A program made the position numbers and the translations under genes. DNA of 22,619 nucleotides, taken from the NCBI GenBank assembly GCA_029834535.1, contig JAQMWT010000426.1:1-22619 (forward strand), in the 5' to 3' direction. Numbering within the stretch: the first letter of the stretch is position 1; every line of letters starts with the position of its first letter. Under the pieces are notes generated by a model that saw only the letters and a list, made by a program, of their open reading frames with translations, searched no databases and had not been told where the DNA came from. Origin of the DNA: Chrysophaeum taylorii (lineage: Eukaryota > Sar > Pelagophyceae > Pelagomonadales > Pelagomonadaceae). Below, piece after piece: positions 1 to 16,053 of the stretch.

Positions 1-508
1 TCGTGACTCTCCGAAGGTTCATGATCGAAGCCGTCGTCGCAAACGGGATGTCGCAGTCCTCTCGAACGTCTTGGCCCCGCCCCATCCCTCTCGAGAGAAT
101 CCTCGATGTGTCCGTTCTGTCATCCACGCCGCGCGAAATATGTCCTTAATCCCCGCGGTTCTTGGCTCCGTGTCAGACGTGTCCGAGGGAAAAAAAAACC
201 CCCCCCCCCCGTTGTTTGTTTGCGCGATGAGGGCCGCGATCTTTGCGCCCGAGGAGCCCCGGACAGCCTTCACGCGCTTCGCTGAGCCGCCCTCAAACTC
301 TTTCGTCGAAGCGCGATCACGGCGCCCAGCGAGGCGCTCGCACAGCAGCCCCTGGGACACGCGACGGCGAACTTCTCCTCGCACAACCACTCGCGTAATG
401 TTGTCGTCGTCGTCATCCCGAATTAGTTCCCGGAATCTTTTTGTCGCAGGGAAAGAAAGAGAGAGGGAATCTGGAAGAATGAAGGGGGTCGAAGCACGGA
501 GGTACAGG
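1..508. other. Left flank of retrotransposon, no gene recognised
   Basis: Sequence outside the LTR element. Open frames exist on both strands but none shows a recognisable domain, and the 123-codon minus-strand frame is arginine-rich and crosses a low-complexity A9-C10 run near 189-209, so I do not call it a gene. The bases just left of the LTR (504-508, acagg) do not repeat at the right end of the element. Confidence 0.5.
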
Positions 509-881
509 TGTGTCGTACGGCTAGTTTTTTAGTGCTACCTGGCGTGCCACGAACTCCGAGCCGCCGCTCGCGTCCGTTGCCCTTGTGTGGGTCCAACTGG
601 ACGGGGAAAAACAAAAAATGGCTGTTCTCCCGCCACCGGGAGATGAAACTACACCAACAACTTCCTGTGCCTGGTCCTCGTCACTATGGAGTATGCGGCT
701 TTCTTTATTATCAATGAACGTATATCGATTGGTAAACACAGAAAATCAGGGTGACGCATGTCACTGAAAAGAAATGATGTCAGGGATGTGGGGAGACACT
801 GGCATCATCAGAACGGAGTAGGTGCCCCTGATAAAGGGGCCTAGACAGGGTAAGCCTTAGGAGGCGGAAGTTGCCGCCACA
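509..881 (-). repeat. 3' LTR of the retrotransposon
   Basis: Direct-repeat partner of 9229-9420. It is bounded on the plus strand by TGTGTCG at 509 and CGCCACA ending at 881, an imperfect TG...CA terminal inverted repeat. The inner boundary is placed where the polypurine tract ends, 37 bases after the stop codon of the last pol segment (919). On the element's own strand an AATAAA polyadenylation signal lies near 704-709. The portion 729-881 (U3 side) has no counterpart in the 5' LTR. Confidence 0.78.
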
Positions 882-893
882 GACCCCCCTGGT
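882..893 (-). promoter_or_regulatory. Polypurine tract (plus-strand primer)
   Basis: On the minus strand this reads accaggggggtc, directly before the LTR start TGTGGCGG. A purine-rich run abutting the 3' LTR is where LTR elements prime plus-strand DNA synthesis. Its position between the pol stop codon (919) and the LTR is as expected. Confidence 0.65.
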
Positions 894-918
894 AGAATTC
901 GAGCTGCCCCAGCGGGTG

Positions 919-1465
919 CTAGCGCGAGGAGCGCAGCTTCGCCTTACGATGCATCATCTCGTGAACGAATCTTCTGGTAAACACGGGTGATGATCGGTTC
1001 AGGAACCTCGACCACTGCGTAAGAGTAAACTTGGGGATCAACACATCAATCTCGTGCGGAGCGAAATCCGTGACACAAGGAGGTTGTGTTGGAGGAAATT
1101 CGGACTTGTCGGTGAAACTTCGACCTTCAACGTCCTTGAACTCGGGCTTGAGCTTTGCGGTGCGAAAGGTGAGAGGTCGGCTTGAAATAAGCGACATCAT
1201 CGTTCGGACCCAAATCAGAGAAATGTAGAGCAACACGATCATTTTGGTAATCGTAAGGCTCGTAAACTTCAGCAACATAAAATCTTCTTGCGCCAATCAG
1301 AGCGCTTCCGGTCGGGAATCCGGAAAACAACAAACTTCCGTGCTGATAATCATCACGGAAGGTTTCTTCGGGTTTGCGGATGGCTTGATCATGATCGGAG
1401 GTACCATCACAGGCGTGATCTGACTAACATGAACACGTCGTTCTTCGGGCGGAGAGTCGAGAGAC
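919..1465 (-). pseudogene. C-terminal tail of retrotransposon polyprotein
   Basis: This stretch follows the integrase C-terminal domain. Right after the break at 1466 the minus strand encodes RVHVSQITPV, resembling the VHVSxLKP segment that follows the GPY/F region in Ty3/gypsy integrases. It continues through two more frames: one with RRFYVAEVYEPYDYQND (around 1200-1270), and the last ending at the TAG at 919 with a basic tail (HRKAKLRSSR). I do not recognise a chromodomain with confidence. The stop codon sits 37 bases before the LTR, so this is the natural end of pol. Whether the tail is a separate targeting domain or only an integrase extension is open. Confidence 0.55.
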
Positions 1466-2400
1466 TCATCCTATAGGTTGACCGGGAAAGGGACGAAAGG
1501 CGTTCCTTGATAATAAACGGCCCTCGCCATTCCGGTCGAAGTTTGTTCTGAAGGAAAAAAAATGGTGAAGCAAAACGTGCGATCCTTCCTTGTATTCAAC
1601 ATCAACATGATGAGCATTGTAAGCCCAATCGTTGTTTCTTAAAGCTTTATCACGAGCCTCGCGGACGATCTTCGTATAATATTTCAAATCGTTCACGAGT
1701 TTCGGCGACTGCATCAGAGCGAGTCTTCGGCAATATCGCGGATCAAAGCGGATCCATAAATCCATGGCGTGTAGTCAGTCGGCAGCATCGGCTGACGGTT
1801 CAGGCGCAGCATAAAGGGAGAATCTGCGTGCCTGGAATAAACTTGCGGTCGTAGCAAAACGCAATATAATGAGAAAAGTCAGGCCAATCCGTAATGTTCC
1901 GGCCCTGAAGGCAAGCACGGAGGAAGGCCTTGATAAATCGGTTGACACGCTCAGCCGGGTTCGACTGGGCATGATAAAATCGTAGTTTGGTATCGTGTGT
2001 CGCAGTCTTATCGTTCAAAACATCCAGAATCAAGAAATGCGAGAACGGATCAAAAAATACTAGAAGATACGTCTCGGGACCAGCGCTGGGCAAGGGTCCA
2101 AATAAATCCATGCAGAGAACAGCACCATCACCATCGTAGACGGGCTGCTGCAAGAGTTTCGGCTCAGGCGTACGAGCTTCCTGGCAAACTAACATTCAGC
2201 AATGAAGACTCCAACTTCATTCGCATGTGAGGCCACCAAAATCGTTCTTGGATAGCCTGGACGGTACTGTGACGTCCCATATGACCACCGTTAACCGGAG
2301 TGTCATGGTAGAGTCGAATAATGCGCTTGCGCAACGTAGCAGGTGCAACAATCATCGGTGCAAATCAGCAGAAATGCGGTAAAGAACGTCTTTAACACGA
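1466..2400 (-). pseudogene. Retroviral-type integrase, internally deleted
   Basis: Integrase inserts the cDNA into host chromosomes. The N-terminal HHCC zinc-binding module is recognisable near 2190-2330 (LYHDTPVNGGHMGRH, then RFWWPHM); its CxxC half, AEC followed by LVCQ, is split by a frame break near 2191. The catalytic core follows at 1800-2195 with the first Asp in CMDLFGPLP. The region that should hold the second Asp (the DxG loop) is missing: about 20 residues after the FFDPFSHF strand the sequence jumps to YHAQSNPAERVNRF, which normally lies some 50-60 residues further on and carries the Glu region. The C-terminal GPY/F-like domain is at 1466-1765 (VEYKEGSHVLL). The loss is not explained by a frameshift, so the enzyme should be inactive. 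Confidence 0.85.
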
Positions 2401-2813
2401 CTTCGAATCGTTCGTTCGCTCGGGAACGTCGCGGCGTCTGACCTTGGGCCATTCGGTAGCGAATATCCTCGCAAGTAGCATCAGATTCTTGCTCACGTGC
2501 GATCTCAGCGAGCGTCATATTATCGGGTATCTTATCGATATAATCTTTGTAAGCTGCGTGGTCCTTGAAGACCTGTGGCTCATCGCGCGCACGGTTCTTC
2601 CGACGTTGTCTCGTAGCGTGAGACGTAGCCAATTTCATCGGATCCTTTTCAGATCTTCTTCCTCGTCTTCCGGCAGTTCGGTCGTAATAAACGACATTAT
2701 GAAGTGGCAGCCGGGGCGGGAACTCCTCGGTCATCAACAGGTCGGGAAGCTCTTGGAACACTAAATAAGCGTGGTTCAAAGTTCTCCAAACTCGTCAGTC
2801 TCGATGACATGAT
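2401..2813 (-). pseudogene. RNase H to integrase connector of pol
   Basis: This low-conservation linker lies between RNase H and the integrase zinc finger. It contains a charged stretch (about 2560-2690) and a segment near 2440-2520 reading LAEIAREQESDATCEDIRYR, typical of the LxxxQxxDxxLxxI helix that precedes the HHCC module in Ty3/gypsy pol. The frame changes on entry (near 2815-2820 and at the AAA run 2778-2780) and on exit (near 2340-2400). Each change is in the sense of one missing base. It is a domain boundary, not an independent gene. Confidence 0.75.
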
Positions 2814-3365
2814 CTATCGGTTGCGGGAGAGACAGTCAGGGATACTCATTCCCGGTGACTTTCCCGGCTTGTAACCAAGTTCAGGGTCAAAATTGGCGAG
2901 GCGCATCGCCCAACGAGCAAGCTGCCCAGACGAGTGCGTCGCCTTGCGTAAAACGTCAAATTTCGGTGATCGGTCTCCAAAACAGTCCGGTGCCCTTCGA
3001 TGTAGGCTCGAAAGTGCTCTAGAGAAAAGTATAACTGCCAGCAGCTCTAGCCGACGGGGCTCATAATTCCGCATCTCCTTCGGCACAGCTCGGCTCCAAT
3101 ATTCAATCACTCGTTCTTCTCGAGTCACTCTTCCGGCATCGTCCTTGACTTCGACAATCTGGAAGAGATATGCTCCAAGTCCATCCTTGAGCATCGGATC
3201 GGATCTGAAAAGGCAGATCATAATCGGGTGGTAGACTCCTCTGGAATCAACCAAAGCTTCAATAATCGTATCCCAGGCTTTCTGACACTCGGGCGTCCAC
3301 TCGAACTTTACACCTTCGAGGCATAATCGTCTCAGCGGTTCCACGATCTTCGAGTAGCCCTTCAC
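2814..3365 (-). pseudogene. Retrotransposon RNase H domain
   Basis: RNase H degrades the RNA strand of the RNA:cDNA hybrid. The segment begins with the reverse transcriptase connection (GYSKIVEPLRRL) and contains the family landmarks: an Asp-containing first strand with DGLGAYLFQ (normally DASxxGLGAVLxQ), IEYWSRAVPKEMRNYEPRRLELLAV, which holds the catalytic Glu, and an end GKSPGMSIPDCLSRNR resembling the usual PGxxNxxADxLSR. The TDH motif region (RAPDCFGDRSPKFDVL) is altered, so the third catalytic Asp cannot be assigned with confidence. It follows RT with a single missing base near 3366, where the RRF-KGYSK junction would otherwise be continuous. Confidence 0.88.
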
Positions 3366-4419
3366 AATCGCCGGCAGTAATTACTCATGCCGATGAAAGA
3401 GCGTATCTGGGTCTTCGGAGAAGTATTCGGCAAAGTACCTGGAATCGGCATCTTCTGTAGTGCTTCCAGCGTCTTCGGATTCGGCTTCAAGCCTTCTGGG
3501 GTCGAAATGTGTCCCAGAAACTCTATATCGTCCTTGAGAAGGTGGAACTTTGCGGTTCGACCGCTGTACCCTCTCTGTGCCAAATGACACATCACTTCGA
3601 TCAAAACTCGTAAGTGTCGATGAAGATCGTCGGATCCCATCATAATATCGTCAACAAACGCAACCAAGTTTTGATACATCCATTTCGAAAGGCCACTCGC
3701 CATTTGCTTGCAGAAAAGAACTCCGGCCGTCTTCACACCTAGAGGTAATCGCAAGAAACTATGAGCGCCAAGTGGGCTAACCATCGTGACAGCGTCCTGC
3801 GCTGCCGGATCCAAACGAAGGTTGTGGTATCCCCATCTAATATCGATGCATGTCCGCCATCGTCTCATGGCGAGAAAAGCTAAAGCATCATCTTGTCGAA
3901 TGTTCGGCCAACTGTTATTGACCAATTGATCGTTGAGCTGACGTAAGTCAACTGCAGCACGGAACGCGTTTGACGTTCCAATCTCAGCTCCTTTCTTTGG
4001 AAGCATCAACACAGGAAAGCCCCAAGGTGAGTTGGCCGGACGAATGACTCCATCCCGGCACCACTCGCTGATCTGCTTGCGGAGACAATCGAGCTTCGCA
4101 GGCGTCAATCGGTAGGGCGTCATCTTTATCGGTCGCGGATTCGCGTCTTTGAATCGTAGAGACACAGGAGGTGAGTCCACAGGTCTCATAATCGGGTCGA
4201 AAAAGGCCCAAGAATATTGCGCACAGTGACGGAGCATCAGTTTCGCATCGTCATCTAAGTGCGGATTGTCAGGAATTCCCAGCTCCTGCACAACCTTGTC
4301 TTCCTTCGTGGGAACTTGAACTTTCATAGCTTCATTATCCTTGACATGCTCGGGAATTTGCGGCAGCGGTGCACCCTCAGCATCGCGCGGCGCATCTTTC
4401 CATGGCACATCGAACTTTT
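3362..4419 (-). pseudogene. Reverse transcriptase domain (Ty3/gypsy type)
   Basis: RT copies the element RNA into DNA. The segment of about 350 residues holds the full fingers-palm-thumb order: DGVIRPANSPWGFPVLMLPKK (region 1), FRAAVDLRQLND, a catalytic Asp in CIDIRWGYHNLRL, FLRLPLGVKTAGVLFCKQM, and the catalytic pair in VAFVDDIMM (an FVDD variant of YVDD), followed by HLLKDDIEFLGH and the thumb (FIGMSNYCRR). This catalytic core is the best-preserved part of the element. The N-terminal side joins the upstream frame through a break at the T-run 4416-4419. There is no independent start codon; it is an internal part of the polyprotein. Confidence 0.95.
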
Positions 4420-4992
4420 CTCATATTTTAGCCTCACTTCCGGGTGGCTTTTGTTGATCCTCTCGCCTTTGACACGAACACTCGGCTCGCTCTTAATCTT
4501 CGGTTCCTGATCTCGCTCAGGATCTGGCGGAACGTCCAAATTTGATTGTCGGGGTGGTCCAGCAGAAGAAGCATGAGACGTCCCCGGCTCATCTGTTGCA
4601 GGCGGAATCAACGGTACCTCTGGAGGTTTCCATTTGGTGTGATCTTGGAGATCATCAGTCGACACCCATCTGACGACACGTGTGCGCGTGTTTAACAGCG
4701 GAACTTGTACGTGACGAAGGGTGGTTTCATCAATTTGCAAATAATAATCAAACGGTCGGTCTGCAGGACTCAACGCTGACGGCAAAGCTTCGCCGCTCAG
4801 GTGAAAATCCTTGGTCACAGAGTTGTGCAGATCGAGTACTAATAAGGTCATCGTGTCTGGTGGCACGACGGACGCCAAGTGTTTCAACGAGGTCGTCCTG
4901 GAGAAGCCAGCCCAATCAAAATCAAGGGGCATCGTCAGCAACTCCGAAGTCATTTTCAGATTCAGAGATTTGTAATCGGAATGGTGCGGTCC
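4420..4992 (-). pseudogene. Polyprotein segment between methyltransferase and RT, unknown
   Basis: This open stretch of about 190 residues is in the same frame as the C-terminal half of the methyltransferase. The first part is rich in hydrophobic strands (PDTMTLLVLDLHNSV near 4830; RPFDYYLQIDETTLRHVQVP near 4700-4760) and may be a folded domain. The later part (4420-4600) is Pro/Ser/Glu/Lys-rich and looks disordered (KIKSEPSVRVKGERI). I do not recognise a family. It could be a target-recognition or C-terminal extension of the methyltransferase, or a plain linker to RT. Confidence 0.55.
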
Positions 4993-5675
4993 TACGCGAA
5001 GCGGGACACGCGCAACGGTGTAAGCTGCGTCTGTCGCGGCTCGTGATGTTCCTAAATTGTTCATCTGAAGTAAATGTCGTTCGTCGGCGTAGCCAAGTGC
5101 TGCGGCGAACTCTTGCTGCATATTCTTGCAAGTCTTTGGAACTGCGCGCAAATGGAGCGGATGGCTGGAAACCAACAATCGCACGCGACAGCTCATCAAA
5201 CTGGGAGTTATGTCGTAAAATGGACGACGTACACGCAAGGGTGTAAACGCGCAACATAAGAAATAATCGAAGCCTCCAGCTCTATCAGCCAAATGAAGAA
5301 ACCAGCCATCTTGCATAATTTCATCGTCCAGTGGGTAGCGGTGACTCCTTTCCCAACATCTCTGGAGGTCAAGTTGCACAGAGCGGAGTGTACGCAGGGT
5401 GGCGACGCGACACACATCGACGACGACCATTCCGCGTAGGGTAAATAAGATTCGATCAACCGTAAGGTTGTAACATAGCGACCACACAGTGTGTGCTGCA
5501 CCACAGGAATGTTCGGAAAATTCTTATGGTGGATCTGGTTGGCTGTGTCCGACGCATCGAGTGCTAGCACGACTCGAAACGACGTCCCACACGTTTCGTT
5601 GGCTTGTTGGAGACCTAAAGTACTGCCTCCGGCTCCACTGAACAGCATCACCACCTTGCGATAAGTGATTGGAAG
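4993..5675 (-). pseudogene. C5 cytosine DNA methyltransferase domain inside pol
   Basis: Enzymes of this family transfer a methyl group from S-adenosylmethionine to carbon 5 of cytosine. Seen: motif I VVMLFSGAGGSTLGL (about 5620-5665, SAM binding), a motif II-like ALDASDTANQIHHKNFPN, motif IV CVASPPC with the catalytic Cys at 5394-5396, a motif VI-like WLIELEA near 5282 (Glu kept, ENV changed to IEL), and motif VIII SCRVRLLVSSHPL near 5160-5193. An ALGY...NNLGTS stretch may be the degenerate IX/X region. Motifs I-VI and VIII lie in two frames that join if one base is missing from the A-run 5217-5220. It shares the protease frame, separated only by an in-frame TAG at 5676-5678. Its position between protease and RT shows it belongs to the element. 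This copy is probably inactive as it stands. Confidence 0.85.
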
Positions 5676-7196
5676 CTATTGAACCTTTTCGTATCGGCGG
5701 CGGATCTCCGCTTCGGTGATCTCGCGGCATTTCTTTTCATCTTCTTCCGACCTTCGAGCGAAATCGTCGCTGCCTTCGGGTCGTTTGAGGGTGGACTTGT
5801 CCGCAACAGCGGTCGTAGCGTCCTTCTGCACCGTGCTCAGCAGCATCGGCGGGGGAGATTCGTCGCATCGCGTCAAGTGACTAGCGACAGAAACGGTGAA
5901 AGAAAGGTTCCCCTTGTCGTTTCCTTCTTCACATTCTTTCGTAAGTTCGTTGATCGTAGAGACGTTCAACTCATCTTCGTACCTAACGATACCGCCAATC
6001 GCAAGGACTTCGCCTTGAGTGACGACCGTCGGCACTTCTTCCGCGGCAGTAACCAAAACCCGAGCAGCGGACCGGTCGTGCTCTTCGCAAGAAGAACACA
6101 TTCCTCCGACAACTCCCAACTGCTCGTTTTCAGCAAACGTAGCGACCAAAACCTTTCCCATTTCCATAGGTTTCGACAAAATAACCGGTAGATTGTAAGC
6201 TCGACCGGGCTCAATTTGAAGCGTGCGCGCAGCATAAGCAACTACTTCCTGCTCGGCTTCTCCCGGAGCTGGGGAGAATTTTGTCGTAGCATGTCCCCGC
6301 GTAGCCAAGGCTACCGTACGTTCCGGCGGCGGGCTTCGGAGATCTTTAATCGTGCTCAAACGAGTGTAAACTCGAGTCTTGACCAGGTCGAGACTCTTCC
6401 GAAAGGCATCGTGTTGATGATTGTAAATCGGTACGGTTATCGGATCTCGATGGTAAATAGATCGAAAGGTTACGATGGGTGCATCGACTCGTTCATCCTT
6501 AACTTTAATCTTCTTGCGCCCGTAGACGACTTGGGTTCGATAAAAACAGATCCGATCGTGGGGATAGTCCACGACGGCTCCTAAAACTCGTATATCGCGC
6601 CCTCCCAACAGGAACAGATAGTTAGTATCGGCTACAGTAGCGACAATGGGGGCAGCGATGTCGTCGGCGAGGGCGACCCGAATCGCGATCCAACGATAGA
6701 TCGTCGTCGTATTCAACCCTGATCCGTACAGCTTGCGCTTAATCGGAAGTTCGCCTTCATCGAAAATCAACTGATCTTTGGCCAACTTTGTGACCATTTC
6801 TCGGCAAATATAAGAAACATCTGCCATGCCATCGACACCGATGGTCGTCGAGAATTTTGGTCCGTCACGATTCCTGTAGATGTGACAGGCTATAAACGTA
6901 AGAGTACCCGTATCTAAACAACTGAGGGTAACCAAATCATCTTCGATCGTCTTGCCGTCTCGCGGTGTCAACGAAGTGTGAGCACATCGGGCTCTGACTC
7001 GCTCATCTCCGGGGTTGGGCATCGATACCGCGGCTTGAGCTTTCGTATCATCTGTTGTTGGCGTCTTCGCCATAACGCTCGCGTCAGCCTCTTTATCTGG
7101 CGGCTTCCGCTCTTCCTCTAAGACAATCTCGGAGGGAATCAACGCTGGTAGGGGACCTGATCTTCGTAGTTCTTGGAAGCAAACGACCCCTCCCAT
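5676..7196 (-). pseudogene. Pol N-terminus: aspartic protease plus beta-rich domain
   Basis: The retropepsin-like protease cleaves the Gag-Pol polyprotein. The active-site region reads TTIGVDGMADVSYI near 6800-6850; aligned to the family pattern VDTGADVSYI, the DTG triad has become DGM, with the Asp kept. The second half has LLGGRDIRVLGAVVDYPHDRI, matching the ILGxDF...AxID strand of retropepsins. A further beta-rich segment (about 6000-6250, with IEPGRAYNLPVI and VTQGEVLAIGGIV) resembles the all-beta domain often found after protease in gypsy elements. The frame overlaps gag by 58 bases in the -1 frame, so it may be reached by -1 ribosomal frameshifting; I see no clear slippery heptamer. It ends at a TAG (5676-5678), after which the same frame runs on into the methyltransferase. 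Confidence 0.8.
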
Positions 7197-8812
7197 AAAT
7201 CATTCAGTTCGTCGTTCCAGAATGCATCTGTGAATTCATTCGTCGCCGGTTGATCCTCACCATCATCGGCGATCGGTTCTGTGTCGGCTGCGGCTTCGAG
7301 TCCGTAGCTGAGCGGTTGTTCTGGTGGCTTCTTTAGCAAGAAATTCTGAGTTTTCGTCCACCAATCCTGCAGGTTCCACGTCGGCTCGTCTTCGTCCCAC
7401 TTGAGAGCGCTGCTAATCTTCTTCTTAAATCTATCCTTTTCTTCCGGCGGCGTATCCGTGGCTCGATCCGTAGTAACCGAAACCGTTTCGGGGGGGTCCG
7501 CAGGAAAAGATGGCGTCGTCCCCGACGTCAACTCTATCGTAAGATCGTCGTCTGCATTACTCGCGCTGGTCATCGTCTCGTCAGTCGAATGAGCGCACAA
7601 GCTATCACTGCAGAAATCCATGTCTGGCTCACAGCCAGTTCGGTCGCCAACGGTCGTCTCTGGAGGGTCCAAAGATAAGCCGATGGCATCGAGGGCTTCC
7701 TCGTCAAAAATAAACGGCTCTCGGATATATTTCAAAATCTTGAGGCAATACTTCTCGTTCAATCCTCGTATCCGTCGTACCACGGAACCGTACTCCTCAT
7801 CGTCGACATCCCGACGTAAATAAAAAGACGCTGGGTGATCGAGGTCTTTACACAGGTCTTCATACTTCTTTAAGTGTTCTCGAAAAATCGGTGCGACTGT
7901 GTCGCGCAGGGTCGCGGGAAGCAGATATCGTAGTTTCTCCAAGCTGAAATGGTCTTCGGCTAACGCACTCATCACCGCGCCCGCATGTAAATCGAACTGG
8001 TCCTGATCGCGTCCATCGAGAACCAGTTTAAAAGCTTCGGTTTTTAATCCAGAGGCTGATCGCCGCTCCTTGTTGCGATCGTGTTTAGCTAACGCGCTGG
8101 CGAATCGATCTGTAAACCCCATCAAGAACTCTTGGGTGTCGATCCTTCCGTCGCCGCGCGTCTCCTCCTTTTCTTCTTCATCATCGTATTCATAGCGCGG
8201 CTTCCTAGCTTTCGAGCGTGATCGTGTAGTTGGCGGCTCCTCCTCAGCTCGGGACTCCGTGCTGCTCGCTCGCCTTGATCGACTCGGCGTACGCAACTCG
8301 TCTCTTTCACGTGTCAACGAGCTTACTTGATCTTGGAAGGCGTTTGCTCGAGCGTTGGCCCTACGCAGTTGCTGTTTTAATTCTTCTTTCTCCTTCCGTT
8401 GTAGCCGTTCTTTTCGTTCGTTCTCTTCCCCTATTTGTTTTAAAAGTCGTTCTTGCGCGCGTTCGTTCTCTTCGCGTAATGCCCGCGAGTGAGCCTCGTA
8501 GAACTCATTCATTTTCGTTGCATCCGGGGGTCCTGCACGCGTTGACGGAGCTGTCGATCGTCCTCCCGTCGGTCTCTCCGTGGGCTTGCCGTCGTTGTAG
8601 TCTAGCTCTTCTTCCTCGTCGTCAACTTCTGTGTCGTGCTCTTCTTCATCGTCGTCATTATCATCATCGTCATTCCGCTCGTTCGTCTAATCCTGACGGC
8701 TTGGCGGATCTTCATATCGTAGCTGCTCGACGGCAGCATCATCGTCTTCCATATCGGCTCTGGCTCGTTCTAGTCGGCCGAGATCAGAGCGGGTCCAAAA
8801 TAATTGAGTCAT
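7139..8812 (-). pseudogene. Gag-like structural protein with one in-frame TAG
   Basis: Gag forms the particle in which reverse transcription happens. I place the start at the ATG 8810-8812: the frame from there (MTQLFWTRSDLGRLERARAD) runs into a TAG at 8687-8689 and continues in the same frame through an acidic Asp/Glu run to the long open stretch beginning at ATG 8512. The total is about 557 codons with the TAG. Visible parts are an acidic N-terminal region, a long charged coiled coil (about 8290-8510, heptad-like, rich in Glu/Arg/Lys), an RS-rich patch, a helical capsid-like middle (FASALAKHDRNKE to RRIRGLNEKYCLKILKYI) and an acidic C-terminus. No CCHC zinc knuckle is seen. It is identified mainly by position, first gene after the LTR and leader, because Gag sequences diverge fast. 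Confidence 0.75.
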
Positions 8813-9203
8813 CGTCGTTCTCGTGCTCCTTCGACTCTGGAACTTCTAATCGTCCACGACACGCGTAATATCGTCGTTGCGTGCGTCTTCCACCGACAAA
8901 TCTATCAGTCCGGTGGGTGGCAGAACTCGTCTCTGCCCGGCAATCAATGCCTTATCCGTGAGTTGCTCCGTGAGTTGCGATCTCACTCCGCTCGCCTGCG
9001 GCAGCGGTACCCGGGTTGCGCGTCGGCTAGCACCGAATCGCGCGTCGTCACTTCCGACGACTAACGTATCCGGCCGGGGAACTTTCCCACGGCAGTGGTC
9101 CTTCTGGAATTCCTTGTCGGCGCGCTTGATCAGGGCGCGCACTGCTAGTCCGGACCGTGTAGAGAATGCAAGATGAACTAGTTCGCTGCGACCGATATAG
9201 TCG
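8813..9203 (-). other. Retrotransposon leader between PBS and gag
   Basis: About 390 bases of transcribed leader between the primer binding site and the gag ATG. Packaging signals would be expected here in LTR elements, but I see no motif I can name. Open frames on both strands lack recognisable domains. Confidence 0.55.
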
Positions 9204-9226
9204 CTCGAATCTCATATCCTCCACCA
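9204..9226 (-). promoter_or_regulatory. Primer binding site, complementary to a tRNA 3' end
   Basis: On the plus strand the stretch ends ...CTCATATCCTCCACCA at 9226. It has tRNA 3'-end geometry: a T-loop-like TCGAAT, five bases for the 3' side of the T stem (ctcat), seven acceptor bases (atcctcc), one discriminator A, then CCA. The element strand therefore starts TGGTGGAGGATATGAG two bases after the LTR end, as expected for a tRNA-primed element. The primer would be a tRNA whose acceptor starts GGAGGAT; I cannot name it without the host tRNA set. Confidence 0.75.
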
Positions 9227-9511
9227 CCTGTGGCGTAAGGAGAATTTTAGGGGCTACCTGGCGTGCCTTCGAATCCTGGCTCGCCGCTCGCGTCCGTGCC
9301 CTTGGTGGAGTCACTGGACGAGGACGGCCGTTCTCCCGCCACACGACCACAAACAACTTCCGTGCCTGGTCCTCACAACTTGAGGATCGGCTGTTGCTTT
9401 ATGATCAAGGTATATCGAAACCAGTGACTCCACCAAGGGCACGGACGCGAGCGGCGAGCCAGGATTCGAAGGCACGCCAGGTAGCCCCTAAAATTCTCCT
9501 TACGCCACAGG
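9227..9511. repeat. Perfect 91-bp inverted repeat with 103-bp spacer
   Basis: Bases 9227-9317 and 9421-9511 are exact reverse complements over 91 positions; pairing fails at 9226/9512 on the outside and at 9318/9420 on the inside. The left arm is the inner (U5) end of the 5' LTR plus the 2-base spacer before the primer binding site. As single-stranded DNA or RNA it would form a long perfect hairpin. Confidence 0.95.
9229..9420 (-). repeat. 5' LTR remnant (U5 side and part of the rest)
   Basis: Aligned to 509-728 of the other LTR: both start TGTG(T/G)CGTA, share the ctacctggcgtgcc block and the ctcgcgtccg block, and end at tatatcga. Sequence matching 729-881, which should contain the promoter, is absent; at 9421 the LTR is replaced by an inverted copy of its own start. 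The 5' LTR therefore lacks the U3 side, and this copy may be transcriptionally silent. Confidence 0.85.
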
Positions 9512-11218: not shown

Positions 11219-11956
11219 CTAGCCCTTGATGGGGTCGAGGAGGGCGCCCGCGGCGATGAAGCCGATGAAGACGAGGGCCGAGACGCCGACAATAATTTTG
11301 GTTTGGAGTTGTTGGCCCGAGGACTCGACGGAGACGCCGACCTGACAGGTGATGGCGCGGGAGCCGTCGGTCTGCTGGGCAACGACGCGGTAGATGAACT
11401 CGCCCTCCTCGGTGTCGACGTCGACGTAAGAGTAGGCGCCGCCGAGAGCGCCCTTAGACTTGAGGGGTTTCCAGGTTTTGTAGGTGGCGCACTCGCGCCA
11501 CTCGCTCGCGCCAACCCTCTTTTTTTCGACGATGAATCCCAGATTGGAGTCCTCGTCGTCGGTGCCCCAGACGAGCTCGACCTCCTCGTCCCTGACCTTG
11601 GCCTTCAAGCCCATGCCCGAGAGCTCCGAGGTGGCCGCCTCGAGGATGTTGACGACGCCTTGCGAGTCCATGAGTTGCTTCTTTTCCTTGCGCTTCTTCT
11701 CGGCGCGCAAGGCGCGCGCGACGGTGATGGCGTCCTCGTCGACTTGCCGAACCATCCACGGGGCGTAAGCGACACCCTTTTCGTTGAACATGTTGCTCCG
11801 CTTCTTCTTGGCGATCTTCTCGGCGTCTCGCATGATCTGGGCCTCCTCGTCGGCATCGAGCTCGGTGCTGCTGCGCCGCACGAGTCGTCGCACCGACGAG
11901 GTCGGGGGCTGCCAGGCGACCGACACCACACACAGAACGAAGGCCCACATCATCAT
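11219..11956 (-). CDS. Plastid-targeted membrane protein with fibronectin III-like domain
   Basis: A 245-residue protein, start ATG at 11956 (two further Met codons follow), stop TAG at 11219. The N-terminus is bipartite: a hydrophobic signal peptide (MMMWAFVLCVVSVA) followed by WQPPTSSVRRLVRRSS, a Ser/Arg-rich stretch like a transit peptide. A cut before an aromatic residue (A/W) is the hallmark of plastid import in algae with red secondary plastids. Then come a charged helical segment (residues about 35-100), a beta-rich region of about 90 residues with fibronectin III-like spacing (LVWGTDDEDSNLGFIVEKK ... YSYVDVDTEEGEFIYRVVA), and one C-terminal transmembrane helix (IIVGVSALVFIGFIAAGALL), probably anchoring it in the thylakoid or envelope. 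The function is unknown. Its ATG is 12 bases from the stop of the upstream transporter on the same strand. Confidence 0.8.
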   Translation of the reverse strand: MMMWAFVLCVVSVAWQPPTSSVRRLVRRSSTELDADEEAQIMRDAEKIAKKKRSNMFNEKGVAYAPWMVRQVDEDAITVARALRAEKKRKEKKQLMDSQGVVNILEAATSELSGMGLKAKVRDEEVELVWGTDDEDSNLGFIVEKKRVGASEWRECATYKTWKPLKSKGALGGAYSYVDVDTEEGEFIYRVVAQQTDGSRAITCQVGVSVESSGQQLQTKIIVGVSALVFIGFIAAGALLDPIKG

Positions 11957-11968
11957 TCCGTCAGTACG

Positions 11969-12990
11969 TCAGGAGAGCTCGACGTCCGTTAGAAGAAGGG
12001 GGGGGTGTTTTAATACGTCTTCCTCCTCCTCTTCTTCGGTCGCGGCCGTGATGTAGAGACCCCCGAGGACAAACGAGGCCGCGAGGAGCTCCTTGGGCCG
12101 CGGGGGCGGTGTGGCGCGGCCAGCGGCGTTGAGGGCCAAGGCGAGCGTCGCGGCGGCGACCGGCTGGAGGGCCGAGTAGGCCGAGACGACCGAGGCGCGG
12201 GCGTGCTTGGCCGCCCAGGTGAGGAGCGCGTAGGAAGCAACCGATTGGAAAAGAATCCAGTAGGCGAGGGCGGGGATTGCCGTTTTTGGGACGGCCCAGT
12301 ATGTCCCCTCGGCGCAGTCCGAGCACGCGAATCGCGGCGCGAGCGAGGTCGCGACCGCCGCCGTCACAAAGGTGATGGGCGTCGCGCAGCAATAGGCCAA
12401 AGCCGCGACCAGGAGGGGGGGTGTTTTGCGGACGACGGCTTTCGAAAGAACGACGTAACAGCTCGTCGCGAGGCAATTAAGGGGAAAAAGAATAAGTGAC
12501 CGACGAGTTCGTTCCGGTTTTTTCGTTTTTCCCGGTCTCTCAAAGCGACCATCGCCGCGCACCCCCCAAAGGCGCACGCGATGCCCGCGACGCGGCGTCC
12601 CGAGACTTTTTCGCGGCCGAGGATGACCGAGAGCGCGAGCGTCAGGACCGGCTGGCTCGGCTGCCAGAGGCTTCCGGCAACCCCGTTCGAGAACTTTATT
12701 CCGAGGATGTAGGCCGCCTGGTTGCCGAAGATGCAGACCCCCAGCACAATAACCGCGCCCCACGGAACGCGGCGGCGGCGGCGGCGGCGGCAGGAATTAC
12801 CTCTACTCCTCTCCGCCCAGAGGGCGGCGGCGAGGAGGAGCGGGCCGGCGCAGGCTTCGCGGATCGCGGCGAAGACGAGGGGATTGAAGGCGGGGAGGCC
12901 CAGGGAGGCGATGACGCTCCCGACGCCGAAGATGAGCTGCACGAGGACGAGGGCGCCGTGGACTACTACTGGTCGGCGGCCCGTCATCAT
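11969..12990 (-). CDS. EamA/DMT-family membrane transporter, one frame break
   Basis: A member of the drug/metabolite transporter superfamily (EamA, plant WAT1-like), whose members have ten transmembrane helices in two repeats and export small metabolites. The first half (12990 to about 12530) carries helices 1-5: VLVQLIFGVGSVIASLGLP, a substrate-site-like FAAIREACAGPLLLAAALW, then GNQAAYILGIKFSNGVAGSLWQPSQPVLTLALSVILGRE, typical of the family. The second half (about 12500 to 11969) carries helices 6-10, including ASVVSAYSALQPVAAATLALAL and ELLAASFVLGGLYI, and ends in an acidic tail. The halves are in different frames; one missing base in the T6/T5 runs at 12518-12530 would join them. A short intron does not fit because no AG acceptor lies nearby, so an assembly indel is the likeliest cause. 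A (CGG)n run at 12770-12792 encodes polyarginine. Confidence 0.85.
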
Positions 12991-13110
12991 AATAACTAAC
13001 TAACTCTCGGTCCAAGTTTTTTTTTTTTCCCCCTCGATTTCGAAACCCTCTTGTTTGGTTGTACCGCCGCCGCCTTGTTGTCGCCGCCGCAAGTATAGAG
13101 TATATATAGC
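12991..13110. promoter_or_regulatory. Divergent 120-bp promoter between EamA and STRAP genes
   Basis: Only 120 bases separate two divergent start codons. A tatatata box at 13099-13106 lies about 110 bases upstream of the EamA ATG on its strand, so it suits that gene. It is only about 5 bases before the STRAP ATG, too close to be a conventional TATA box for STRAP. Also present are a T12 run near 13017-13028 and repeated CCGCCG triplets. Confidence 0.5.
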
Positions 13111-14157
13111 ATGGCCGCCGTAGAGACGACGACGATCGAAGCTGCTGGTGCCGCACCGGCGGTGAGCCACCACCACCAGCAGCCGCCGATCGTGTGCCCC
13201 GGGCACGTGCGGCCTCTGGCGGAAGTCCACTTCTCGGGGGAAACCCCGGACGGGGTGTTTTTGATATCAGCATGCCTCGACGGATCACCGATGCTCCGCG
13301 ACGGTGCGACGGGGGACTGGATCGGGACCTTCGCCGGGCACAAGGGGGCCGTATGGTCGGCCAAGGTCGACGCCGAGGCCCGGCTCGCAGCGACGGGTTC
13401 GGGGGACTTCTCGGCAAAGCTATGGGACGCGGTCACGGGAAAGTGCGTCGCGACGCTGTCTCACGGTCACGTCGTAAAATCTGTGGACATAAGCGGAAAT
13501 CGCGCGACCCTCGCGACCGCGGGCCACGAGGGCGTCGTGCGGCTCTTCGACGTCGCGACGGCCTCGGACGTTCCGGTGCGCGAGCTCGCGGTCGGCGCGC
13601 AGCTCGCCAAGTGCTGCTGGGCCGACTCTGATTTGGTAGTCGCGGGCGCGAGCGACGGTTCGATCCGCGTCTGGGACACCCGCGGTCCCGCGTGCGTGGT
13701 GGACTTTGCGTTGGAGGGTGGCCCCATCATGGACATCGAGCTCAAGACGGCCGGCGGCCGCCCGACGATGACGGCTTGCTGCGGCGACGTCGTCGCCGTG
13801 TACGACGCGAAGACCTGGACGCCGCGGACCCGAGTCGCTGCCCCCGTTCATTTTCGGGAAGAGGGCGGGGCCTCCCTCGCTCCCTCGGGGGACCGCCTCG
13901 TCCTCGGGGGCGGCCGCCACGGCGGTTCCCGCCAGGGCGCTCTCGGCGTCGAGAAGGGCGCTACGCGCGTCGGCGACGTCGGCTCGGACCTCACCGTGTT
14001 CGCGGTCGACCTCGAGGGCAACGTGGTCCACGAACGCAAGGGCCACTGCGGCCCCGTCCGCTGCGTCCGCTTCCATCCCTCGGGCGCTACGGTCGCAACG
14101 GGATCGGAAGATGGCACCATTCGCATCTGGCCAATCAAGAATGCCACAGCAGATTAG
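13111..14157 (+). CDS. STRAP: STRAP-like WD40 repeat protein (unrip homologue)
   Basis: A 348-residue seven-bladed WD40 propeller. Known relatives are STRAP/unrip: in animals a TGF-beta receptor-associated adaptor and a partner of the SMN complex in snRNP assembly; the algal role is unknown. Diagnostic segments near the N-terminus match STRAP rather than generic WD40 proteins: CPGHVRPLAEVHFSG, GVFLISACLDGSPMLRDG, TGDWIGTFAGHKGAVW, AKLWDAVTG. The last blade reads GHCGPVRCVRFHPSG ... GSEDGTIRIW, the usual STRAP end, with only a short tail. The ATG at 13111 is the only in-frame candidate before the first blade and adds an Ala/Thr/His-rich leader of about 25 residues. There is no intron and the stop is TAG. 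GC is very high, unlike the flanking mobile elements. It is convergent with the RCC1-like gene. Confidence 0.92.
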   Translation: MAAVETTTIEAAGAAPAVSHHHQQPPIVCPGHVRPLAEVHFSGETPDGVFLISACLDGSPMLRDGATGDWIGTFAGHKGAVWSAKVDAEARLAATGSGDFSAKLWDAVTGKCVATLSHGHVVKSVDISGNRATLATAGHEGVVRLFDVATASDVPVRELAVGAQLAKCCWADSDLVVAGASDGSIRVWDTRGPACVVDFALEGGPIMDIELKTAGGRPTMTACCGDVVAVYDAKTWTPRTRVAAPVHFREEGGASLAPSGDRLVLGGGRHGGSRQGALGVEKGATRVGDVGSDLTVFAVDLEGNVVHERKGHCGPVRCVRFHPSGATVATGSEDGTIRIWPIKNATAD

Positions 14158-14313
14158 TAATAGTCCCGTGTTCGGACGATCCGTATCGCGACCCCGGTCG
14201 ATCCAGGATCACTTACCCGCGGCGCCGCCCGGAGGGACTCGAAGCGACCTCGCCGTCCTTTTCTGTGACATCGCACTCTCCTACGAGCCGCTTCCGTGAT
14301 CACCTGACCTGAC

Positions 14314-14353
<40 letters not shown>

Positions 14354-14733
14354 GCCGCGCGGAGACTTTTTTTCTGCGTCGACCGTTGTTGTTGCTTTAG
14401 AGGGTTGGTTTTTCAAAAAGCCGCGACGCCTTCTTCCTGCCTTCCTCCCTCCCTCGGAGACGAGAGACGAGAGACGAGAGACGAGAGACGAGACGAGAGA
14501 CGAGAGACGAGACTCTAAAAAAAACGCCGCCCCTCCTCCGACGACGACCTCGTGGTCTGCTGCTGCTGCTGCTGCTGCTGCTCGAACAGAACAGAACAAA
14601 TTCATCTGTACCCCTCCCTCCTCTGGCGTATTTTTTCTTCGCGCACCGCTTCTCCTTTCACCACCACCACCACCACCACCACCACCACCACCTTGCTCTC
14701 GTCGTGTTCCATACGACGCCGTCGTTGTTGTTG
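14158..14733. repeat. Cluster of microsatellites between convergent genes
   Basis: Within about 400 bases lie (GA)n at about 14,313-14,352, a CGAGAGA-type heptamer array at about 14,457-14,513, (CTG)n at about 14,558-14,583 and (CAC)n at about 14,660-14,692. A (GTT)n run at 14,722-14,735 precedes the RCC1 stop. This is the shared 3' space of STRAP and the RCC1 gene. No gene is seen; open frames here are repeat translations. Confidence 0.9.
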
Positions 14734-16053
14734 TTAAGGAGACTCTTCTTTCGTTGTTGTTACGAGGGCGAGCGCGTGCTTCCAGCCGACGGAGACGTCG
14801 AGGAAGCGGGCGCCGACGATCGGGGGGTGGAGCTCGGTGGCTACGCACCCCTCCGGCTCGAGGCTCGGACCGAAGACGGGGGTCGTCGGGGACTGCGGGT
14901 CGAAGAGGGCCACGGAGTCGATGCCGCTGCCTGCGGGAGTCACTCGGCGTCGTCGTCGTTATCAAAGAGTAAAGGCGCACGGAGAGCCAAGGTCGTCGAC
15001 GACGGGAGACCGGCGAGGGGTCTGGGCGCGGACACCATGTGCCGCGTGCGCCTCTCGAGGCCGAGAACCCAGACGGTCGAGTCGGCGTCGACGAGAACTG
15101 TATGAAAGGCCGAGCACGCGACCGCGGTCGCCGGGGCGCGCGGAGCGCGGCCGCGATACGACGCGCTCGTCTGCAGCGGAAGTCCGCGCGGCGAGAGAGC
15201 GTCCCCGAAAAGAAGCGGCTCCCTATTCGTCACTTGGGTGCCCCGGAGCTTTCCCCATACAAAAACCTCGCCGGCCTCCGTGAGCGCGGCGGAATGCGAG
15301 AGCCCGCATGCCACCGAAACGACGCCCGCGAGCTCCGGGACCCGCTCCGGAGCGAGAGCCGGGTCGCGACTCCCGAGACCCAGTTGGCCATTCTCGTTCT
15401 TGCCCCACGCCCAGACCCTGCCGTCAATCCCGACGGCAAGGCCGTGGCGGAACCCGAGGGCTACGCCCTTCACCGGACTTTCGACGCGCACGGCAGATAG
15501 CGATTCCACGACGGTCGACCGTTTTCCGACGCCGCACTGACCAAAGTCGTTACTCCCCGCGACCAAGAGATCGCCCGCGGCGCCAAGGACGACCGTCACG
15601 CCAGCGCCGCAGACGACACTCTGAGCGGGAACCTCATCGAGAAGCCGAGGGGCCAGACTCAAGGTCCTCGCGACGTCGAAAAAGAAGCTAGCCGCGTTCA
15701 CCGCTCCCGACACCAACGGCGACACGGCGTGAGCGCGCGCCTACCATCATCATCATCATCATCACCAAACTGGCCTTACCAGCTGGAGCGCCGACGATGG
15801 AGGATCGAGCCTGCGCGCTAGGTTCGCGTTTGGGACGAGAAGGCTCGGCGCACGGACGACCCCAAATGTGCACTTTGTCGTCTATGATGCTCGCAGAGTG
15901 CGCCCATCCGGCTGAGACGCTCCTCGCTCCGACCGCCACTTCCTCCAGCAACTCCCGTTCGGCCCAGTCTCCGTGACCCAAGCACCCGAGGTACCCGACA
16001 CCCCGAGACCAAACGCCGCCAGTCGTCGACAAGAAACGACCCGTTGACATCAT
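14734..16053 (-). CDS. RCC1-repeat (beta-propeller) protein
   Basis: The protein has RCC1-type repeats, each with the hallmark CGxxHxxAL and VWxWGxxxxGQLG pattern. Exon 1 (16053-15780) starts at ATG 16053 and holds the first blade (GVWSRGVGYLGCLGHGDW, SVSAGWAHSASI). The middle part (15703-14981) holds GDLLVAGSNDFGQCGVG, GFRHGLAVGIDGRVWAWGKNENGQLGLG and VACGLSHSAAL. The last part (14930-14734) holds VSVGWKHALALV. The first join fits a 76-nt GTAAGG...AG intron (15704-15779), the only choice nearby that restores frame. The second join is either a 50-nt intron (14931-14980, GTGCGC...CCGCAG) or one missing base near 14940. RCC1 proteins serve as GTPase exchange factors or scaffolds; the specific role is unknown. 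About 330-350 residues, short for a full seven-blade RCC1. Confidence 0.82.

Follow-up and report, generated by a model that had tools for sequence, protein, structure and literature searches.

The window, which is the whole stretch of DNA analysed (22,619 bp; contig JAQMWT010000426.1, C426 in our numbering, of the 70.8-Mb assembly of Chrysophaeum taylorii), carries on its minus strand what its sequence identifies as a broken copy of a Ty3/Gypsy long terminal repeat (LTR) retrotransposon. Within Pol, between a protease-like stretch and the reverse transcriptase (RT), lies a domain that, to judge from sequence comparisons, is almost certainly a C5 methyltransferase (MTase) by descent. The family to which this copy belongs is called family A below. 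A chlorophyll a/b-binding gene in the host genome identifies the host as an alga. The features of the element, in its own 5′ to 3′ order, are:

9227..9424, minus strand: 5′ LTR piece; 8823-9424 is a 93% match to copy L081, including the LTR stretch, and the LTR end is CGCCACA
7139..8686, minus strand: gag-like open frame, acidic, without a Pfam family; L081 has the same order, in one frame with the downstream parts
6594..6842, minus strand: protease-like stretch, GVDGMAD (6819-6842) to LLGGRD (6594-6611), by motif reading only
5208..5675, minus strand: putative MTase domain, first part (PF00145, 22.3 bits; hhalign with shuffles; five-element alignment)
5625-5645, minus strand: motif I, LFSGAGG, in the first part
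5547-5564, minus strand: motif II, ALDASD, in the first part
5385-5405, minus strand: motif IV, SPPCVHS, in the first part
5271-5291, minus strand: motif VI, WLIELEA, in the first part (IEL here, IEQ in other copies)
4840..5220, minus strand: putative MTase domain, second part, in another frame in the window copy (five-element and C5 profile alignments)
5170-5190, minus strand: motif VIII, CRVRLLV, in the second part
4999-5022, minus strand: motif IX-like YTVARVPL, in the second part
4840-4869, minus strand: motif X-like VVPP, in the second part
3362..4420, minus strand: RT, with FVDDIM at 3641-3658 (RVT_1, 52.5 bits)
2814..3380, minus strand: RNase H (RT_RNaseH, 34.3 bits)
1800..2195, minus strand: integrase core piece, frame broken (rve, 15.1 bits, under its cut-off)
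512..881, minus strand: 3′ LTR, TGTGGCGG...CACA (likeness to the LTR stretches of other copies)

The first part of the MTase domain (frame 5208-5675) reads LPITYRKVVMLFSGAGGS...VLALDASD...ASPPCVHS...WLIELEAS and the second (frame 4324-5523) reads FYDITPSLMSCRVRLLV...YTVARVPL...VVPPDTM. Motifs I, II, IV and VI share one frame in the window copy, and CRVRLLV and YTVARVPL stand in another. This copy is a pseudogene, because a stop lies before the MTase domain (5676-5678), the frame changes inside the domain near 5215, and the RT is in a third frame. The sequence-only reading from which the analysis started had set the domain at 4993-5675, its first half in frame with the protease. The domain does lie there, but it continues to the motif X-like end at about 4840; the shared frame was also correct, but in the window copy the stop splits it into two open frames, whereas another copy reads through. 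We take 6594..6842 to be protease-like from its motifs only; a Pfam scan of 5676-7199 found no family.

The genome was scored for the first part of the MTase domain at 150 places among 778 candidates. All 150 (window included; at least 150 places, on many contigs) matched it with 83-100% identity, 140 of them without a stop and 35 in open frames of at least 1,000 aa, the longest frames that hold the segment being 3,067 and 3,063 aa. The outcome named beforehand as one that would refute the reading, all other genomic copies lacking the segment, was not seen, since many of them carry it. The PPCVH codon pattern occurs 350 times in the genome, against nine times for the reversed pattern; by construction this pattern finds only codings of PPCVH, and synonymous variety within it is no proof alone. 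On contigs C1-C153, for which all matches are listed, however, seven of the eight copies with 83-87% identity to the window retain PPCVH. Hundreds of places in the 71-Mb genome are occupied by the family, whose diverged subfamilies are represented here by scores and pattern counts only. The stop and frame changes of the window copy might suggest that a host gene had inserted by chance, or decayed, in one copy, or that the assembly is at fault; this explanation is refuted by the number of places and contigs, by other elements with a homologous domain in that position and by low dN/dS (ratio of nonsynonymous to synonymous substitution rates), and its probability is negligible.

The intact copy L062 is stop-free over 1,352 aa and comprises, in order, linker, MTase, linker, RT, RNase H, H2C2 integrase and rve. 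Its Pfam matches are RVT_1 at 642-806, RT_RNaseH at 901-1013, Integrase_H2C2 at 1197-1255 (66.2 bits) and rve at 1273-1352 (37.1 bits), and it shows the Ty3/Gypsy order of RT, RNase H and H2C2 integrase in a single Pol frame. In L081 and L050 a gag-like and protease-like frame precedes the MTase. The motif-IV Cys, the motif-VI Glu and R-x-R were kept in 25 of 25 copies examined (29 loaded, 4 dropped). Motif VI, proposed earlier as IEL from the window alone, is IEQ in all 25 other copies examined, IEL being a variant of the window copy; its Glu stands, as shown below. As a separate observation on the assembly, contigs C25 and C521 have RVT_1 matches at nearly equal offsets with equal scores; they are perhaps two haplotypes or a duplicated contig, and copy counts may be inflated.

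With the standard profile the domain was barely recognized. PF00145 matched the frame 5208-5675 of the window over aa 7-63 with 22.3 bits (E 9.9e-5; gathering cut-off 22), so that the profile named beforehand for this check gave a hit, if by a small fraction of a bit; intact copies scored 20.6 and 21.4 bits. The N-terminal half of L062 scored 55.9 in hhalign against a reference of 11 C5 sequences (10 phage methyltransferases, of which two enter with their later portion only, and the host DNMT2-type gene), and 100 shuffles gave a mean of 12.4 and a maximum of 22.7. In a profile comparison of family A alone with these 11 enzymes, motifs I-IV aligned (P 1.8e-7); the C-terminal half of family A alone did not rise above shuffles against the same reference (67 of 100 reached its score).

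Relatives were decisive: the readings of motifs VI and VIII, unsupported by family A alone, became supported once relatives were included. Protein searches with the MTase part of intact copies gave none among 1,426 candidates at E ≤ 0.01 and none among 1,731 at E ≤ 10, and scans of IMG/VR and GTDB gave no relative. With an RT-integrase query, the upstream domain being sought afterwards, 176 relatives were obtained, 120 of which were examined. Among the nearest are four Gypsy polyproteins, P0004 (MMETSP) and P0005, P0006 and P0013 (metagenomes), in which the RT is preceded by a homologous domain with 22.6-31.0% identity to that of family A (P 1e-42 for the whole domain, P 9e-22 for its C-terminal half); the best match of P0005 is Ty3 Gag-Pol. 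PF00145 gave 13.2 bits for P0005 and no match for P0004 and P0013. A Chrysocystis transcript (P0003; Pelagophyceae) starts in the C-terminal part of the domain (aa 2-121, 55 bits) and is the nearest relative bearing a eukaryote name among the relatives listed, in agreement with the earlier proposal of an algal lineage that is neither dinoflagellate nor charophyte. P0001 and P0002 rank above it but carry bacterial metagenome-assembled genome names, and we take both to be mis-binned. The other nearest relatives with an RT match begin too close to the RT, or past its start, for the domain to be judged; among P0014-P0120 none shows the domain, even though at least 500 aa precede the RT in 36 of the 106 in which RT is matched.

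The five elements jointly aligned with 13 C5 sequences (the 11, the host DNMT5-type domain and a piece of family B, a second family described below) over 273 columns that extend into the motif X region (P 2e-14; 1.4e-13 against the 11), and the four relatives without family A aligned with the C5 set with P 1.7e-12. The motif-IV Cys is invariant in all five elements, as PPC, PSC or PDC. So is the motif-VI Glu, the Asn of ENV being replaced by Gln and the Glu of EQ falling on the Glu of ENV. SYV, placed by eye as the counterpart of ENV, was overturned by this alignment. R-x-R, read earlier as motif VIII (RVR) in the window, is present in five of five elements and is supported by the joint alignment; the motif X VPP is present in four of five, counting IPP, and is absent in P0004. 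A DRM-like rearrangement of motifs was considered and rejected, as stretches sampled along the polyprotein gave no second one as strong as the domain; the best C5-like stretch outside it lay in RNase H (P 0.0085).

Selection was measured on copies chosen by RT likeness, in pairs that are not independent, so that no p-value is given. Over the catalytic part (aa 82-310 of L062; 25 of 29 copies) dN/dS was 0.122, compared with 0.057 for RT, 0.127 for RNase H and 0.142 for integrase. In aa 311-430 (domain end and linker) it was 0.44, and the stretch that precedes the domain gave 0.28 (21 of 29 copies). Stop-free copies chosen by MTase or RT likeness gave 0.082 (25 copies), a value biased to low dN. 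The constraint on the catalytic part is thus at the level of that on RNase H and integrase, unlike that on the domain end (aa 301-372). The domain has very probably been kept for a function.

The domain of P0005 (335 aa) was modelled from five alignment rows, with a predicted local distance difference test (pLDDT) score of 51 and a predicted template modelling score of 0.51, that is, at moderate confidence. C5 methyltransferases filled 50 of the 50 Foldseek rows shown and came first among the VIA rows and among viral models, which suggests, at moderate confidence, a C5 MTase fold for this relative. The window piece folded alone was uninformative (pLDDT 33).

On the joint alignment, the kept catalytic residues and the low dN/dS, this Gypsy clade is assigned by sequence a divergent C5 methyltransferase, and the placing of the enzyme inside Pol between protease-like sequence and RT, first proposed for the window, is upheld by many open copies, four homologous elements, the fold matches of one of them and selection. 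Since intact copies and distant relatives alike keep the key residues, the domain looks like a working part of the element and not an accident. It reads, with somewhat better than even confidence, as a divergent but complete C5 enzyme, with an S-adenosylmethionine (AdoMet) loop, the catalytic Cys of S/T-P-x-C, the Glu of EQ and R-x-R; its target-recognition part is short, and its end resembles motif X. It is likely to be catalytically active.

Several findings weigh against this reading. Motif VI is EQ and not ENV, motif IV of the relatives is PSC or PDC, and P0004 has an odd motif I (AGISIGAAG) and no VPP. The linker at aa 431-560 has a dN/dS of 0.187, so that constraint is no mark of the domain alone, and the domain end is weakly constrained (0.43 for aa 301-350, 0.39 for aa 351-400); four of the 29 RT-selected copies were dropped with the MTase domain deleted, broken or misaligned. 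Foldseek TM-scores of the P0005 model are low (about 0.3-0.4), and Rossmann methyltransferases outside the C5 group (8i9v_CS, 10.4; METTL16, 10.2) come within 1.6 of the best VIA Z. The identities of MTase and RT across the five elements are weakly correlated (Spearman 0.38, p 0.28, 10 pairs), and strict common descent is therefore not shown. CpG depletion was sought and none was found, the observed/expected ratio being 1.29 in the window element and 1.28 in adjacent host DNA (1.2-1.4 across three element stretches); among copies, C>T/G>A changes at CpG affected 120 of 627 columns (0.191) and transitions at other C/G columns 336 of 1,697 (0.198), and third codon positions showed at most a weak CG excess. 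With no mutational trace, either the mark is rare, not hypermutable here or placed elsewhere, or the enzyme does something else.

Two alternatives draw on this missing trace. The domain might have lost catalysis but still bind AdoMet or nucleic acid, serving the polyprotein structurally or by binding RNA or cDNA; the altered motif I and PDC of P0004, and a family A in which, taken alone, only the motif I-IV half is recognizable, are in its favour. It is nevertheless unlikely, as all 25 copies examined, and five elements whose domains are so distant from family A, retain the Cys, the Glu and both Arg. The enzyme might otherwise act on RNA (element RNA or primer tRNA) and not on DNA, as DNMT2 does, for the best match of an intact copy among PDB sequences was DNMT2 (17 bits, E 0.02). 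The two best PDB matches span only aa 7-66, however, that is, motifs I-II, which are general to C5 enzymes; the five-row profile ranks a phage-type enzyme before DNMT2, both as weak matches; the fold matches do not favour DNMT2; and the Dnmt2 signature, CFTxxYxxY, is unmatched in the five-element alignment, though an FT/YT pair is shared. An RNA substrate is accordingly judged quite improbable.

The reading that we favour, with somewhat better than even confidence, is that of a Ty3/Gypsy polyprotein with gag-like, protease-like, C5 MTase, RT, RNase H and integrase parts, whose MTase was acquired before the clade split, was kept by selection and may mark the element's own cDNA. The clade itself comes from several unrelated samples. 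The MTase would be made in fixed ratio with the RT and packaged with it. At about the time of reverse transcription it may methylate cytosines in cDNA (or RNA) of the element itself, and a new copy would thus be marked before it enters the genome; the mark could afterwards be maintained across rounds of replication by a DNMT5-type enzyme of the host. That own cDNA is the main substrate is held only tentatively.

One MTase frame of the host shows the DNMT5 layout, its SNF2 match being partial (37 bits); a second, complete MTase is called DNMT2 from its CFTKSYGRY stretch, on the signature given above. Alternatively, the host genome could be acted on in trans, the domain being for example the sole source of new DNA methylation where the host otherwise has only DNMT5 and DNMT2 types. 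Two host-type PF00145 matches do stand out (L001 and L002, 67.1 and 61.2 bits), the other 18 of 18 PF00145 loci read are family B elements, and the DNMT5 layout fits. These counts cover 20 of 57 PF00145 matches and 123 of 474 candidates scored, and intron-split genes can be missed; action in trans is considered improbable. The involvement in maintenance described for Cryptococcus DNMT5 (PMC9998398) would make the idea of new methylation supplied by a retroelement attractive. A host with the DNMT5 layout is a setting in which to test whether a retroelement starts methylation that the host maintains. We regard as doubtful, though worth stating, the wider proposal that an algal Ty3/Gypsy clade acquired a C5 MTase once and kept it while the RT diverged to about 45% identity, that the host's own DNMT is of the maintenance DNMT5 type, that the element would be its source of new CG methylation via its own cDNA, and that such enzymes escape PF00145 surveys.

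To our knowledge, retrotransposon-borne DNA methyltransferases are known from few lineages. In the sections of de Mendoza et al. 2018 (PMC5890265) that bear on them, KnitGypsy-Dnmt3 of Klebsormidium nitens and SymbioDIRS-Dnmt3 and SymbioLINE-Dnmt of Symbiodinium are described. KnitGypsy-Dnmt3 resembles family A in having a C5 MTase in a Gypsy Pol frame, intronless copies and purifying selection (reported Ka/Ks <0.2), and self-methylation is suggested there, as it is here. It differs in the assignment of its enzyme to the Dnmt3 group and in repeats described as DIRS-like; compared by description alone, family A has EQ in place of ENV, PF00145 scores around the cut-off, LTR-type ends, and relatives from MMETSP, metagenomes and a pelagophyte. 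The Symbiodinium elements are likewise many-copy retrotransposons encoding C5 MTases, with other arrangements: a tyrosine-recombinase DIRS element, whose DNMT shares Pol with the RT, and open reading frame 1 of a long interspersed nuclear element. The same sections report that SymbioDIRS enzymes methylate CG in yeast, whereas the enzyme here is known from sequence, and report no CG difference from DIRS without DNMT. DNMT3 in LTR and DIRS elements together with orphan DNMTs (PMC12344493), transposon-borne methylases in defence (PMC6338049) and an Ectocarpus Sola DNA transposon with an enzyme of the N4-methylcytosine/N6-methyladenine type (PMC12477816) are treated in the portions of those sources that concern such elements. 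Compared with M.HaeIII, M.HhaI, DNMT1 and DNMT2 (PF00145), the element enzyme has motifs I, II, IV, VI, VIII and X in the same order and, by the relative's model, apparently the same fold; it differs in EQ for ENV, in PSC/PDC in relatives, in a short target-recognition part and in scores from no match to 22.3. Among the matches listed from the open-access literature, no paper on this Gypsy clade was found. Retrotransposon MTases as a kind are thus known; what appears new is the lineage of this enzyme (EQ, near the Pfam cut-off), together with its hosts and its occurrence across a Gypsy clade. That the standard Pfam model scores near or below its cut-off, yet the catalytic residues and the place in Pol are kept, suggests that retroelement MTases are under-counted.

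Family B (L003-L020), in the same genome, is by sequence a second, unrelated retroelement family with a C5 MTase, which lies in a large open frame downstream of a protease-like motif (tblastn, 18 of 18 loci). Its 979-aa frame (487-3423 in L017) has at least 64 matches (47 of 883 candidates scored). The profiles of families A and B are unrelated (P 0.26), and IVENV and TLPC are retained in family B. Neither the RT nor the class of family B could be picked out among the RVT_1 and RVT_2 matches listed. In L020, positions 1-1453 are a family A 3′ end, with an LTR start near 1166, cut near 1450 and followed directly by family B MTase sequence; the junction is a nested insertion or a recombination. 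At least eight RVT_1 matches, among them the four strongest listed, fall within about 45 kb of contig C696, which is perhaps an organelle contig with group II introns.

The window copy has LTR pieces at both ends, about 72% alike, with ends TGTGGCG...CGCCACA, and its 5′ end is rearranged. A 91-nt perfect inverted repeat of LTR sequence (9421-9511 against 9227-9317) replaces the outer part of the 5′ LTR, a local rearrangement. The 3′ LTR at 512..881 is 71-74% like the LTR stretches of L081, L080 and L039 and the window's own 5′ piece, and is nearer to L020 (87-89% over a longer match). Divergence is far higher in window positions 1-2000, where the LTR has about 72% identity to the copy's own 5′ piece and 89% to L020, than in 2002-5921, which are 97-98% identical to L052 and L053; with its diverged 3′ part, the copy is either a patchwork or lies at a poor contig end. 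Beside the element, at 11219-15740, stand host genes for an EamA transporter, an EIF3I-like WD40 protein and RCC1 repeats.
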